The notes below the pieces were generated by a model. The model was not told the DNA's origin and searched no databases. It saw nothing but the letters and a program-made list of their open reading frames with translations. A DNA stretch of 37,458 nt from Ignavibacteriota bacterium. GTDB lineage: Bacteria > Bacteroidota > Ignavibacteria > UBA10030 > UBA6906. The stretch covers positions 1 to 37,458 of the forward strand of contig PMDK01000223.1 in the NCBI GenBank assembly GCA_003154425.1, read 5' to 3'. Below, piece after piece: positions 1 to 37,458 of this stretch (positions are counted from its first letter, which is position 1; the number at the start of each line of letters is the position of its first letter). The position numbers and the translations under genes were made by a program.

Positions 1-1278
1 CAGGACTGCTACGCCGGCGCCGATCCGGCCTACCGGATGCCGATCCGCATCGTCACGGAGCTGGCCTGGCACAGTCATTTCGCCAGGAACATGTTCATTC
101 TGCCGGAGACCCGCGAGGAGTACCGCCGTCACATCCCCGACTTCACGATCCTGTGCGTCCCCTCGTTCAAAGGGATCCCCCAGATCGACGGGACCACCAC
201 GAACACCTTCATCGTCCTGAACTTTGCGGCCAGGATGTGCATCATCGGGAACACCGCATACGCGGGGGAGATCAAGAAATCGGTCTTCACGATTCTGAAC
301 TACCTCCTCCCGCTCGACGGTGTGATGCCCATGCACTGCTCGGCCAACATCGGGAGCGGCGGGGAAGCGGCGATATTCTTCGGGTTGTCGGGGACCGGCA
401 AGACGACCCTTTCCGCGGACCCGGAACGGCGCCTGATCGGCGACGACGAGCATGGATGGAGCGACGAAGGAGTGTTCAATTTCGAGGGGGGCTGCTATGC
501 AAAGGTGATACAGCTTTCGGCCGCCGCTGAACCCGAGATTTACGCCTGCACCAGGAAGTTCGGCACAATACTCGAGAATGTGGTGTTTGACCCGATCACC
601 CGGATGATCGACCTGGATGACGAGTCCATCACGGAAAACACGCGCGCGTCCTACCCGCTCGAATTCATCGCCAACGCGGTTCCGGAGAAACTGGGAGGCC
701 ACCCTAAGAACATCATACTGCTCACCTGCGACGCCTCGGGGGTCATGCCTCCAATCGCCAAACTTACTCCGGACCAGGCGCTGTACCAGTTCATTTCGGG
801 ATATACCTCGAAGATCGCGGGGACGGAAGTCGGATTGGGAAAAGAGCCGGAAATGACATTCAGCACCTGCTTCGGTGCGCCTTTCATGGTCCACCACCCG
901 TCATTCTACGCGGACCTGCTGAAGCGTAAGATACTGAAGTACGATGTCCATTGCTGGCTTGTCAACACGGGATGGATCGGCGGCCCGTACGGCATCGGAA
1001 AGCGCATCAGCATACGGTACACCAGGGCGCTTCTCAATGCCGCGCTCGGCGCGAGGCTTCTTGACGTGAAGTTCACCACCGACCCGGTGTTCGGGTTCGC
1101 CGTCCCCCAGTCATGCGAAGACGTCCCGGCGCACGTATTGAACCCCGGAGACTCATGGCCGGACAGAGCAGCGTACATGCAACGCTACCGGGAACTCGCC
1201 TCCAGGTTTATCGAGAACTTCAAGAAGTTCGAATCCGGGTGTCCGCCCGAAATACGCAACGCGGGTCCCCGACGGTAA
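1..1278 (+). CDS. pckA: Phosphoenolpyruvate carboxykinase (ATP), 5'-truncated by window edge
   Basis: It converts oxaloacetate plus ATP to PEP, ADP and CO2, the first committed step of gluconeogenesis, in the cytosol. The frame is open from base 1, so the gene starts outside the window; 425 residues remain of a family length near 530. Visible signatures are the start-of-core stretch YAGADPAYR (residues 4-12), the kinase-1a loop GLSGTGKTT (128-136), the metal-binding IGDDEHGW just after it, then ENTRASYPLEFI, and the C-terminal NTGWIGGPYGIGKR nucleotide-binding region. These are diagnostic of the ATP-dependent and not the GTP-dependent family. The next gene on the same strand begins 106 bases downstream. 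No terminator is visible in that gap, so read-through into plsC is possible. Confidence 0.97.
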   Translation, partial: QDCYAGADPAYRMPIRIVTELAWHSHFARNMFILPETREEYRRHIPDFTILCVPSFKGIPQIDGTTTNTFIVLNFAARMCIIGNTAYAGEIKKSVFTILNYLLPLDGVMPMHCSANIGSGGEAAIFFGLSGTGKTTLSADPERRLIGDDEHGWSDEGVFNFEGGCYAKVIQLSAAAEPEIYACTRKFGTILENVVFDPITRMIDLDDESITENTRASYPLEFIANAVPEKLGGHPKNIILLTCDASGVMPPIAKLTPDQALYQFISGYTSKIAGTEVGLGKEPEMTFSTCFGAPFMVHHPSFYADLLKRKILKYDVHCWLVNTGWIGGPYGIGKRISIRYTRALLNAALGARLLDVKFTTDPVFGFAVPQSCEDVPAHVLNPGDSWPDRAAYMQRYRELASRFIENFKKFESGCPPEIRNAGPRR

Positions 1279-10736: not shown

Positions 10737-11357
10737 TCACACGCCCTTCGTGACTGGCATCGGTTCCTTTTCAGCGTGAGCCGGTGTCTTTTTCTGCACA
10801 CGCCAGTAGGCTCCCCCTCCCCCTTCTCTGGCCATGAACCCGTGTTCCACGAGTGAACGACGGAGGGTGGCGGTATCCGGACTGTACTTCGCAAGGATCT
10901 GGTTCACGCGCTTCTCCGGGTACTTCACCCCGGCTTCGAACTCTTCGAGTATATGCCTGAGTATGACGAGGAATTTCTTCTCCTGTACCGGAAACGCCTT
11001 GATGCGGCCGTTCGCATCAGAAAAGGCAGCAAGAACCTTCCGGTCGTACGCGTCCACGTCCATTCCCAACGCGAGTCCCGGGAGGGTCTCTTCGTGGAGT
11101 ATCTTTTTTGCCATTCCGGCGAGCGCCGCCGTATGCAGCGCGTAGATGCTGTAGTAGCCCTCTGCACGGGCGGATACGAGACCGGCCTGTCCCAGTCTGG
11201 AGAGATGGTGGGAAACGGTCGATTCCCCGACGCGGAGTGTGGAGGCGAGCTGTTCGACCGATTGCGGTTTCTGCGCAAGGAGGCCGATGATCCTGAGCCG
11301 GTTAGGTTCGGCAAGTGCCTTGAAGAAACGGACGAGTTCGTCAACCTGACTTTCCAT
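10737..11357 (-). CDS. ArsR-family transcriptional regulator with C-terminal DUF2087 domain
   Basis: This is a DNA-binding repressor-type protein of 206 residues. Residues 1-90 form the ArsR winged helix-turn-helix (ALAEPNRLRIIGLL near 14-27; recognition helix around GESTVSHHLSRL, 44-55). Residues about 105-178 match the DUF2087 pattern (FSDANGRIKAFPVQEKK...LVEHGFMARE), a pairing known in this family. No metal-binding ELCVCDL-type cysteine motif is visible, so the signal is not obviously arsenic or another metal. ATG 11357 is preferred over ATG 11369 because GGGAG sits five bases before it. Repeats over its promoter suggest autoregulation. The divergent mla genes are a plausible but unproven target. 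Confidence 0.85.
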   Translation of the reverse strand: MESQVDELVRFFKALAEPNRLRIIGLLAQKPQSVEQLASTLRVGESTVSHHLSRLGQAGLVSARAEGYYSIYALHTAALAGMAKKILHEETLPGLALGMDVDAYDRKVLAAFSDANGRIKAFPVQEKKFLVILRHILEEFEAGVKYPEKRVNQILAKYSPDTATLRRSLVEHGFMAREGGGGAYWRVQKKTPAHAEKEPMPVTKGV

Positions 11358-11367
11358 GGAAACTCCC

Positions 11368-11395
11368 ATATAGAATTAATGTTATAAATATAGAA
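11368..11395. repeat. Paired ATATAGAA direct repeat, candidate arsR-type operator
   Basis: ATATAGAA occurs at 11368-11375 and again at 11388-11395, exactly 20 bases apart (about two helical turns). The AT-rich spacer TTAATGTTATAA lies between them. One copy covers the arsR -10 box and the other lies just downstream of the expected transcript start. This placement is typical for an autorepressor site; binding is an inference. Confidence 0.5.
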
Positions 11396-11415
11396 CTACT
11401 TTTACAAAGATGCAA
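11387..11415 (-). promoter_or_regulatory. Sigma70-type promoter for the ArsR/DUF2087 gene
   Basis: On the minus strand TTGCAT (11410-11415), 17 bases and TATATT (11387-11392) form the promoter. The start point would be near 11380, just upstream of the two candidate ATGs. Its -10 overlaps one ATATAGAA repeat and its -35 lies inside an AGATGCAA inverted-repeat arm. Confidence 0.6.
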
Positions 11416-11440
11416 CGAGAATCCTCAGGTGTTTGCATCT
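11408..11440. repeat. Inverted repeat AGATGCAA-17-TTGCATCT between arsR and mlaE
   Basis: AGATGCAA (11408-11415) and TTGCATCT (11433-11440) are perfect 8-base complements separated by 17 bases. Each arm carries TTGCAT reading outward. The left arm is the arsR -35 box. The right arm faces mlaE, but 17 bases on there is only a poor -10 (TTCATT). No clearer mlaE promoter was found. Confidence 0.45.
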
Positions 11441-15855: not shown

Positions 15856-16659
15856 ATGAACAATATGGGAAAGGTCTTCAAACGGTACGCGCCTGCCGCA
15901 CTCTCAGAATCGCGTGAGGCCCTCGGCCAGGTCGGGGGTTCGGGGGATCTCGAAGCTGACATCGGGCTCTGTCCACTTCAAACTCTTGAGCCGGCCTTCA
16001 TGAAGTACCTCCCGCGTGAGGGGAAGATCCTGGAGGCCGGCGCGGGTCGTGGCCGCTGGGTGTTCTACCTCCGGCGACATGGGTTTGACGTCGTCGGGAT
16101 GGACATTGCGCGCACGGAAATCGCTGCTGCTAAAGCATTCGATCCCGATGTCCCGATCGAATACGGGGATGTACTCAAGACAGGGTATCCCGACCGGTCA
16201 TTCGAAGCCGTGATCTCGCTCGGCGTCATTGAGCATTTCGAGGACGGACCCCAGGCGGCCTTTGCGGAAGTCCGTCGCATCCTGAAAGCCGGAGGACTTT
16301 TTCTTGTCACTGTCCCGACCCAGAATTTCATGCGCGTCGCCCTCTTCAACCGAATCAAAAGCCTTCAGATCTCCTATCGCAGAATTAAGGGGGTCGAGAT
16401 GGAGTTTGAAGAATACAGGTATTCGCGCGGCCAGTTTGAAGCACTCCTGCGGGAGGCGGGGTTCCTGATCGTGGACAAAGCACCTGATGACTTCCGTCCA
16501 CCGATGAATATGGGGTTGTACGCCGATTCGCGATTTCTCCAGCATCCTGAGCGCCGGTGGGAGCTCAACACTGCAGGTAAAATCCTGAATGCCACGCTGA
16601 GCGCCCTCTCCCCCTGGCTTCATTGCTCGGGGACCCTCTGGGTTTGCCGGTCTCCCTAG
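15856..16659 (+). CDS. Class I SAM-dependent methyltransferase
   Basis: This is a small-molecule methyltransferase of the Methyltransf_11 type with 267 residues. The SAM site is LEAGAGRGRWVFYL (59-72), with the acidic VVGMDIA (79-85) after strand 2. SLGVIEHFED (121-130) and LKAGGLFLVTVPT close the core. The C-terminal 90 residues (YRRIKGVEMEFEEYRYS onward) resemble the cap of sugar or lipid methyltransferases in polysaccharide loci. The ATG has no Shine-Dalgarno sequence. The 190 bases upstream (15661-15855) show no convincing promoter. It is convergent with the polysaccharide operon ending in nadD, so it may belong functionally to that locus. The substrate is unknown. Confidence 0.82.
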   Translation: MNNMGKVFKRYAPAALSESREALGQVGGSGDLEADIGLCPLQTLEPAFMKYLPREGKILEAGAGRGRWVFYLRRHGFDVVGMDIARTEIAAAKAFDPDVPIEYGDVLKTGYPDRSFEAVISLGVIEHFEDGPQAAFAEVRRILKAGGLFLVTVPTQNFMRVALFNRIKSLQISYRRIKGVEMEFEEYRYSRGQFEALLREAGFLIVDKAPDDFRPPMNMGLYADSRFLQHPERRWELNTAGKILNATLSALSPWLHCSGTLWVCRSP

Positions 16660-35378: not shown

Positions 35379-35409
35379 GGCCGACTGAGCTCTGCGATTG
35401 GTGCGTGAT

Positions 35410-36669
35410 TCACGAGGGACGGATGATGACGGTCGAGAACCGGCTCAAATCAAACAGGTCCACAGCGACCTTCTGGATTTCTCCAGGCGTGACAGCATCG
35501 ACTTTCTTCAGAATGGTATCGAGCGCAATGCATCTCCCGTAATAGAGCTCGGAGCTACCAAGACGCATCATGCGGCTCGACATGTTCTCCAGACCGAGCA
35601 TCATTGTCCCCTTGATCTGCGCCTGGGTTCTCCCCAGTTCGGCCTTTGAAACAGGGGTCTTCATTAACCTGCGAAGTTCTTTGTGCACCAGTGAGATAGA
35701 ATTGACAATGTTCTTTTTGTCCGTCCCGATGTACGTGCCGAACAAACCCGTATCTGAGAGAAGATTGACGAACGAATACACTGAATATGCGAAGCCGTGC
35801 TTTTCCCGTATCGTCTGATAGAGTCGCGAACTCATCCCCTCGCCAAGCAGTGCGTTAAGCAACATCAACGGGAAACGATCCTTGTGGTGGATGCTGTAAC
35901 CCACGGTCCCCAGGCAGATGTGTGCCTGGTTGATTGGCCTGGGGTATTCCTTTTTCAGGGACCGGGTGACACGCGTCGGGCCTGGAAGACGTTTTCTCGG
36001 CGTGGATCGCCCGGTCGTATAGTCAAAGTTCTTTGCTGCGAGCTTGACGAGGCGGTCATGATCGACATTGCCGGCGGCCGCGACGACGATCCGGGAGGAC
36101 TGATAATGGGCCTTGACATGCGAGAAGAGGTCCTGCCGGCTAAAGCTCCTCAGGTTCTTCTCTGTCCCTATGATCGGAAACCCCAGAGCATGGTCGGGGA
36201 AAAGGGCCTTTTCGAAGTAATCGTGTATGATATCTTCCGGATCATCTTCTGCGTTCTTCAGCTCCTCGATCACCACCAGTTTTTCTTTTTCCAATTCCCG
36301 TTCTTTAAACGTCGCGTGCGTCACGATGTCTGAAAGTACATCCATCGCCTCAGCTACGTTCGAGTCAAGCACCCTGGCGTAGAAGCAGGTCTGCTCCTTG
36401 GTTGTGAACGCATTCAGGTATCCGCCAAGGGATTCCAGACTCTGTGCGATATCCCTGACGCTTCTCTTCTTTGTCCCTTTGAACACCATATGTTCAATAA
36501 AGTGGCTGATCCCGTTCTGGGTCAGGGATTCATCGCGGGATCCTACGTCAGCCCACACACCGATGGAGACCGAACGCACATGCGGTATCGATTCCGACAC
36601 GACACGGATGCCGTTGTTAAGCACGGTTTTGCGATAGAGGGGGGTGACAGACGGGGAAGATTTAGACAT
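35410..36669 (-). CDS. M16 family zinc peptidase (processing-peptidase-like)
   Basis: This metallopeptidase resembles bacterial and mitochondrial processing peptidase beta subunits. Its 419 residues have the inverted zinc motif HFIEH (56-60), with the third ligand Glu in VVIEELKNAEDDPEDII near 135-136. The second, inactive-type half follows (CLGTVGYSIHHKDRFPLMLLNALLGEGMSSRLYQTIREK). It is the single-domain, about 420-residue form that works as a dimer; its substrate is unknown. ATG 36669 gives the natural start. The longer frame to 36735 is contradicted by a promoter whose -10 lies just six bases upstream of this ATG. Confidence 0.92.
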   Translation of the reverse strand: MSKSSPSVTPLYRKTVLNNGIRVVSESIPHVRSVSIGVWADVGSRDESLTQNGISHFIEHMVFKGTKKRSVRDIAQSLESLGGYLNAFTTKEQTCFYARVLDSNVAEAMDVLSDIVTHATFKERELEKEKLVVIEELKNAEDDPEDIIHDYFEKALFPDHALGFPIIGTEKNLRSFSRQDLFSHVKAHYQSSRIVVAAAGNVDHDRLVKLAAKNFDYTTGRSTPRKRLPGPTRVTRSLKKEYPRPINQAHICLGTVGYSIHHKDRFPLMLLNALLGEGMSSRLYQTIREKHGFAYSVYSFVNLLSDTGLFGTYIGTDKKNIVNSISLVHKELRRLMKTPVSKAELGRTQAQIKGTMMLGLENMSSRMMRLGSSELYYGRCIALDTILKKVDAVTPGEIQKVAVDLFDLSRFSTVIIRPS

Positions 36670-36675
36670 GTTGGA

Positions 36676-36704
36676 AATATATCCATTTCGGCGTGGATAG
36701 TCAA
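36676..36704 (-). promoter_or_regulatory. Promoter predicting a leaderless M16 peptidase mRNA
   Basis: On the minus strand TTGACT (36699-36704), 17 bases and TATATT (36676-36681) make a strong promoter. Only six bases (TCCAAC) separate the -10 from the ATG at 36669, so the usual start distance places +1 at the A of the ATG. No Shine-Dalgarno sequence is present, which fits. Confidence 0.6.
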
Positions 36705-36714
36705 GGAATTGAGA

Positions 36715-36736
36715 AGTGTCCACAACAAAGGACACT
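36715..36736. repeat. Palindrome between divergent promoters, candidate operator
   Basis: AGTGTCC (36715-36721) and GGACACT (36730-36736) are perfect complements around ACAACAAA. The centre is about 21 bases from the M16 -35 box and 23 from the -35 box of the divergent glycosyltransferase promoter. The position suits a regulator that affects both genes. Confidence 0.45.
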
Positions 36737-36748
36737 CCGGCGGTGTCA

Positions 36749-36777
36749 TTGCATCGTCATCTTTTTTTGGGTACCAT
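36749..36777 (+). promoter_or_regulatory. Promoter candidate for the 3'-terminal glycosyltransferase
   Basis: TTGCAT (36749-36754), 17 bases and TACCAT (36772-36777) form the pair. The -35 equals that of the arsR gene and the -10 equals that of the dksA-like gene. The expected start near 36784 leaves a leader of about 32 bases without an obvious ribosome site. Confidence 0.45.
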
Positions 36778-36815
36778 TATCGCACCTTGAACACTGCCGA
36801 CCGTGGCGATCTTCC

Positions 36816-37458
36816 ATGATTGTTACTCTGCTCTTCTTGTTCAGCGTTGTGTACATGCTCATGATTTTGCTGTTCGCCGGCGCGGCAGCCACAACGAAGA
36901 TTCATCCGGAAAAGGGCTATCGACCACGCGTATCGGTCATTATTGCGGCAAGGAACGAAGAGGAAAAGATCGGACTGTGTCTGAATTCGATTATTGCGCT
37001 CACATATCCGCAGAAGCTTCTCGATATCATCTTTGTTGACGATCGATCCACCGACCAAACGGCGGAAATCCTGAACAAGTTTGCTGCCGCGCATGCCCAC
37101 ATCCGCGTGCTCCGGATCGGAACGGAAACTGAATTTCCCCCCGGAAAGACAAATGCCGTGATGAGCGCGGTGGACATATCATGGGGCGAGATTCTCATGT
37201 TCACGGACGCAGACTGCAGGGTGCCGCCAAACTGGATTGAGAACACCGTCAAGTATTACTCCGATCCGTCGGTGGGGGTGGTTGCCGGATTTACTTCGCT
37301 TGCCGGGGTGTCTTTGTTTGAAGAGATACAGGCGCTTGACTGGTTTGTTCTTTCCTCCGTCGCTGCGGCGACTACCCGACTGGGATTTCCAGTTACTGCG
37401 GTGGGAACGAACCTGTCCGTGCGCCGGGCAGCGTACGACTCAGTCGGCGGGTACAGGA
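36816..37458 (+). CDS. Glycosyltransferase family 2 with N-terminal membrane helix, 3'-truncated by window edge
   Basis: The frame is open to the end of the window; 214 residues are visible. A membrane helix occupies about residues 2-24 (MIVTLLFLFSVVYMLMILL). The GT-A domain follows: VSVIIAARNEEEKIG (39-53), IIFVDDRSTDQTAE (nucleotide binding) and MFTDADCRVPPNW (metal-binding DxD). VGTNLSVRRAAYDSVGGY resembles the conserved acceptor region of processive or lipid-linked-sugar transferases. A C-terminal membrane part is expected beyond the window, as in the bacterial ceramide/dolichol-sugar or polysaccharide synthase-like groups. It is divergent from the M16 peptidase. The product is unknown. 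Confidence 0.85.
   Translation, partial: MIVTLLFLFSVVYMLMILLFAGAAATTKIHPEKGYRPRVSVIIAARNEEEKIGLCLNSIIALTYPQKLLDIIFVDDRSTDQTAEILNKFAAAHAHIRVLRIGTETEFPPGKTNAVMSAVDISWGEILMFTDADCRVPPNWIENTVKYYSDPSVGVVAGFTSLAGVSLFEEIQALDWFVLSSVAAATTRLGFPVTAVGTNLSVRRAAYDSVGGYR

Follow-up and report, generated by a model that had tools for sequence, protein, structure and literature searches.

Conserved promoter-to-start distance among orthologues supports a predicted leaderless mRNA for an M16 peptidase in an Ignavibacteriota bacterium

The mRNA of an M16 peptidase gene in an Ignavibacteriota bacterium (GCA_003154425.1, a 3.84-Mb draft genome in 351 contigs, 85.5% complete) is predicted to start at the A of its initiation codon, ATG 36669, and hence to be leaderless; this is the best reading of the sequence comparisons reported here, and we assign it a probability of approximately 0.85. 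All positions refer to the window, the whole stretch of DNA that was analyzed (37,458 nucleotides of contig PMDK01000223.1). In the proposed model, the primary sigma factor would read TTGACT-17-TATATT upstream of the gene, transcription would begin at the A of ATG 36669 and yield a 5′-terminal AUG with no leader, and ribosomes would initiate at this AUG via the initiator tRNA and not through Shine-Dalgarno (SD) pairing. We infer the exact transcription start, the activity of the promoter, and the ribosome mechanism, the last of which rests on established knowledge of leaderless mRNAs.

On the minus strand, TTGACT, a 17-base spacer, TATATT, TCCAAC, and ATG 36669 follow one another (Table 1), and the gap of six bases between the -10 box and the ATG places +1 on the start codon. 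An initial annotation had drawn attention to this geometry and to the lack of an SD sequence, and inspection of the sequence bears it out on both points: in the 15 bases examined upstream of the ATG no SD was found, the longest SD-like match being GGA. The usual sigma-70 numbering puts +1 at 36669. The rule described for Flavobacterium, by which TAnnTTTG spans -12 to -5 (PMC9723704), places it at the same base. The -10 element and the next two bases read TATATTTC, which is near the Bacteroidota -7 box TAnnTTTG. When the box of the Bacteroidota primary sigma factor (TTTG - TAnnTTTG) was compared with TATATTTC in the window and TATATTTG in G003, another genome of the comparison, the sites were found to fit sigma-70 (TTGAC, 17 bp) equally well. 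The gene product contains both a Peptidase_M16 and an M16_C domain. Since its upstream neighbor, a glycosyltransferase gene, is divergent, the M16 gene needs a promoter of its own in the intervening 146 bp. The 5′ end of the predicted mRNA is open when folded, to a degree that is not unusual (z -0.54).

Table 1. Coordinates of the M16 start region in the window and of the dnaG gene used for comparison.
Feature	Position	Strand	Remarks
-35 element TTGACT	36699..36704	-	same sequence in 15/18 family genomes; TTGCTT in 3
Spacer, 17 bases, 3′ end TGGA	36682..36698	-	mean identity 66% to 14 non-genus family members
-10 element TATATT	36676..36681	-	identical in 18/18 family genomes
Discriminator TCCAAC, 6 bases, between -10 box and ATG	36670..36675	-	length 5-6 in 9/18 family genomes
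Start codon ATG	36667..36669	-	predicted transcription start is its A (36669), by geometry and gap conservation
M16 peptidase gene, 419 aa	35410..36669	-	PF00675 6e-42, PF05193 2.5e-44
Divergent glycosyltransferase family 2 gene, runs off the window	36816..37458	+	PF00535; ATG 36816 read by eye
Perfect inverted repeat AGTGTCC-N8-GGACACT	36715..36736	.	center ~57 bp before the predicted +1
dnaG	L132 (G000 contig C220) 11960-13825; relatives L244-L306	-	leaderless or near-leaderless geometry

Judged from the window alone, the promoter match could be due to chance: positions 35400-37458 hold two promoter-like sites on both strands together, compared with 1.4 expected, and the M16 site is the only one on the minus strand. 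Rarer than the promoter match by itself is a promoter matching at least 10 of 12 bases with an ATG at a gap of 5-7, which was found at one of the 1210 ATGs of the window (0/616 on the plus strand, 1/594 on the minus strand), compared with 2 of 9132 ATGs in 20 single-base shuffles.

The prediction draws its strength from the orthologues. M16 matches at an E value of 0.001 or better were present in all 60 genomes searched (only distant ones in G006 and G026), and 19 of the 21 genomes of the family have a match at 1e-120; the G016 sequence is truncated ahead of the start, which left 18 for examination. In all 18, the best-scoring upstream site has a 17-bp spacer. Scored against TTGACT/TATATT without any bonus for spacing, these sites reach 12/12 in 15 genomes and 10/12 in three, whereas among 900 shuffles of the M16 upstream DNA a score of 12 occurred in none, 11 in one, and 10 in 29, with a spacer of 17 in a third. 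The first in-frame ATG lies 5-6 bases after the -10 box in nine of the 18 genomes, which comprise all four members of the genus and five representatives of three other genera; the gap is six bases in the four genus genomes, G005, and G010, and five in G014, G018, and G020. Because the promoter, the 17-bp spacing, and the gap of 5-6 bases are conserved across four genera, the leaderless start put forward in the initial annotation appears to be well founded. What speaks against it is that the short gap is not universal, the remaining nine family genomes having the ATG at 23 bases or more (23, 26, 26, 35, 56, 56, 62, and 62) or, in the case of G013, no ATG but only a TTG at 53. Outside the family, 11 of 39 order-level genomes were examined, of which seven have the M16 ATG at 32-64 bases and four lack an ATG downstream of the promoter. 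In the family members from other genera (14 genomes), identity to the window is 96% at the boxes, a figure partly built in by the choice of the site on its boxes, 34% over the 26 upstream bases, and 33% over the hexamer that follows the -10 box. Thus, by sequence comparison, the putative promoter is kept and the short distance is kept in half of the genomes, but the surrounding bases are not. A pyrimidine directly before the ATG was considered as a marker of leaderless genes and rejected as uninformative, since it is found in all nine M16 genes with leaderless geometry and also in most of the leadered ones.

The distribution of the two states was placed on an M16 tree of 25 of the 29 sequences, from which four order-level genomes whose promoter is not followed by an in-frame ATG (G046, G035, G025, and G030) were dropped and in which G013, with its TTG only, was kept and scored as leadered. 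The genes with leaderless geometry fall into two groups, one made up of the genus and G005 and the other of G010, G014, G018, and G020. At least two changes of state are needed (bootstrap range 2-3), while strongly supported branches alone force one; gain and loss of the leaderless state cannot be told apart on this tree.

Three other readings of the M16 start need to be weighed. Transcription might begin at A36671 or A36672 and leave a leader of 2-3 nt, which we regard as unlikely. These adenines are the sole purines in TCCAAC, and the dnaG genes of relatives in family f6, whose gaps are 8-10 bases in 8 of 13 genomes, would imply leaders of 1-4 nt; however, such a start needs a discriminator of 3-4 bases, which is shorter than usual, and the leaderless orthologue of G010 has no purine before its ATG (TTTTCC). 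Functionally, an mRNA of this kind and a leaderless one would be almost the same.

It is very improbable that translation starts at the in-frame GTG 36735 or GTG 36723 of a longer mRNA made from another promoter. The listed open reading frame extends to GTG 36735, and two in-frame GTGs are found upstream in all four genus genomes, at -60 and -48 from the -10 box, but their conservation has a simpler explanation, as both are located within a conserved inverted repeat. This repeat occurs as a single copy per genome in the four genus genomes, always between the M16 gene and its upstream neighbor, and we infer it to be a candidate operator with a single target. Moreover, no in-frame ATG, GTG, or TTG precedes the M16 start in any of the five leaderless-geometry genomes from other genera, the scan of 35400-37458 revealed no second promoter-like site on the minus strand, and the promoter itself would have to code for the added residues. 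For annotation, these observations make a case against extending the M16 gene to an upstream GTG.

Least probable of all is that the promoter match arose by chance, as the number of such sites in the window would allow, and that the gene is expressed by other means, given that all 18 family genomes keep the site and its spacing while its flanks diverge.

The wider use of SD sequences and of leaderless geometry was assessed in a 686-kb sample of the source genome, including the window, in which a simple home-made gene caller delineated 540 genes. An SD match of at least five bases precedes 23.0% of 504 starts, compared with 6.3% and 7.7% of decoy positions, and a match of at least four bases precedes 47.6%, compared with 26.0% and 24.8%; SD sequences are in use in this genome, because matches exceed those at decoys. 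No 16S gene was found in the draft, and the anti-SD sequence is intact in all seven relatives with a full 16S 3′ end, one of which belongs to the same family. A fixed consensus was used to count promoter gaps by distinct genes, over 736 candidate ATGs of 461 genes. With a threshold of 9/12, there were 62 hits within 70 bases of an ATG, in 46 genes, including nine hits in nine distinct genes at gaps of 5-8, one at 0-4, five at 9-20, 34 at 21-50, and 13 at 51-69; per gap, the averages are 2.25 hits for 5-8, 0.42 for 9-20, and 1.13 for 21-50. Single-base shuffles yielded 0.45 hits at gaps of 5-8, and at 10/12 there were seven real hits versus 0.05. Since other gaps are also enriched over shuffles, the comparison per gap is the fair measure of the peak, which is only about twofold over the leadered promoters at 21-50. 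A stricter pattern (TTGACN-15..18-TATANT with an ATG within 30 bases) had 33, 41, 28, and 38 matches in G000, G002, G001, and G003, respectively, and 3, 1, 3, and 1 in backward controls, a promoter with two ATGs being counted twice.

The class with leaderless geometry is thus, as predicted from these counts, real but small. The initial annotation had suggested that leaderless or weak-SD initiation may be common in this organism and had proposed a count of ATGs 5-8 bases after a -10 box: SD use is indeed modest and the count does peak at these gaps, but the nine genes are a minority of approximately 2% of the 461, and the suggestion is better put as modest use of SD sequences alongside a small leaderless class. 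Its further examples hold only in part. The dnaE and dedA genes do lack an SD, but the methyltransferase gene at 15856 has GGTGA seven bases upstream, and leaderless geometry is absent at all three; the ATG of dnaE lies 22 bases from a candidate promoter (TTGATT-17-TAGAAT, 8/12), and dedA (VTT domain) has only a weak one (8/12) at 19 bases. We also rejected a mixture model of gene starts with two motifs. The second of these drifted toward pyrimidine-rich sequence, and the model misplaced the M16 start to GTG 36624, probably because the coding-score cut-off had removed the true ATG; the SD motif (AGGAGG-like) was its sole informative output.

A second gene with a short gap that can be traced through relatives is dnaG. 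In the family, where one genome (G001) is truncated here by the end of its contig and two (G006 and G011) have no strong match, TTGCCT-17-TAGATT or a close variant stands 5-6 bases before the start in 12 of the 18 genomes with readable upstream DNA; in G019, a GTG occupies the start position. The dnaG gap is 20 in G004 and 19 in G013, where the start lies 13-14 bases further from the promoter and the leaders contain the SD sequences GAGGAG and AAAGGAG. Across the order, 61 genomes have a dnaG match and readable upstream DNA, and the best site within 75 bases has a gap of 5-10 in 30 of them, as against 178 of 2420 shuffles (7%); when only scores of 9 or more are counted, these numbers become 25 of 61 and 28 of 2420, and several of the dnaG sites match only 8-9 of 12 bases. 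By family, gaps of 5-10 are found in 12/18 genomes of f1, 9/13 of f5, 9/13 of f6, 0/11 of f3, 0/5 of f2, and 0/1 of f4, and the predicted state in f6, where gaps are mostly 8-10, is near-leaderless rather than leaderless. It is conceivable, although we hold this only tentatively, that certain genes of the order have an ancient leaderless start maintained by selection, dnaG being the best example, and that the start codon of such genes slides behind a fixed promoter. If so, the switch between leaderless and leadered forms could tie the output of primase and protease to conditions that favor leaderless translation.

Similar arrangements were noted at a few other genes. An Aminotran_5 gene of G000, which we take to be cysteine-desulfurase-like (L138, contig C337, 17125-18282, minus strand), has TTGACA-17-TATATT at a gap of seven; TTGACA and this gap are kept in all four genus genomes, and inspection by eye of the 12 other family genomes whose upstream DNA is readable revealed the pattern in none, perhaps excepting G009 with a gap of nine. 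A MarR-family gene of the same genome (L178, 626-1063) has TTGACA-17-TATATT at a gap of six, and G002 holds a near-identical stretch with the same gap. In the window, an ArsR/DUF2087 regulator gene (11330-11420) has TATATT 17 bases before ATG 11369 and 29 bases before ATG 11357, the latter with GGAG.

These results indicate that tracing the promoter-to-ATG gap through orthologues can serve, without RNA data, as a test of a leaderless start that was predicted from a single sequence, and they offer the M16 peptidase and dnaG as concrete genes for studying the gain and loss of leaders. They also add an uncultured lineage near Bacteroidota in which SD use is modest and a small leaderless class would exist alongside it. 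A search of the literature on leaderless starts in Bacteroidetes, Ignavibacteria, Chlorobi, and dnaG revealed no report of these cases in titles or the opening lines of abstracts, which is weak evidence of absence.

Leaderless initiation itself is of a known kind. In a survey of SD use, the available portion of which contains no mention of leaderless genes of Ignavibacteria, the value listed for Ignavibacteria is 32% SD (Table 1 of PMC10783764); both this value and the 23% found here by another criterion correspond to moderate use. Leaderless mRNAs make up 5.5% of those mapped in Flavobacterium psychrophilum (PMC9723704) and about 3.7% of 5′ UTRs are shorter than 10 nt in Bacteroides thetaiotaomicron (PMC7366714). 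These two bacteria resemble the source genome in belonging to a related lineage, in the similar minority share, and in a TAnnTTTG-like box, but their values were measured, whereas the leaderless class here is predicted from sequence in a genome that still uses SD sequences. A parallel in geometry is provided by the TA-led genes, a statistical class of leaderless genes over 953 bacterial genomes (Zheng et al. 2011, PMC3160421), which share with the M16 gene a TANNNT -10 box approximately 12 bases before the start codon and no SD. The difference is that here the gap has been traced through the orthologues of single genes, together with switches to longer leaders. By this comparison, the M16 peptidase would be a well-supported case of a known kind, and how well the gap appears to be conserved, above all at dnaG, is of some interest.
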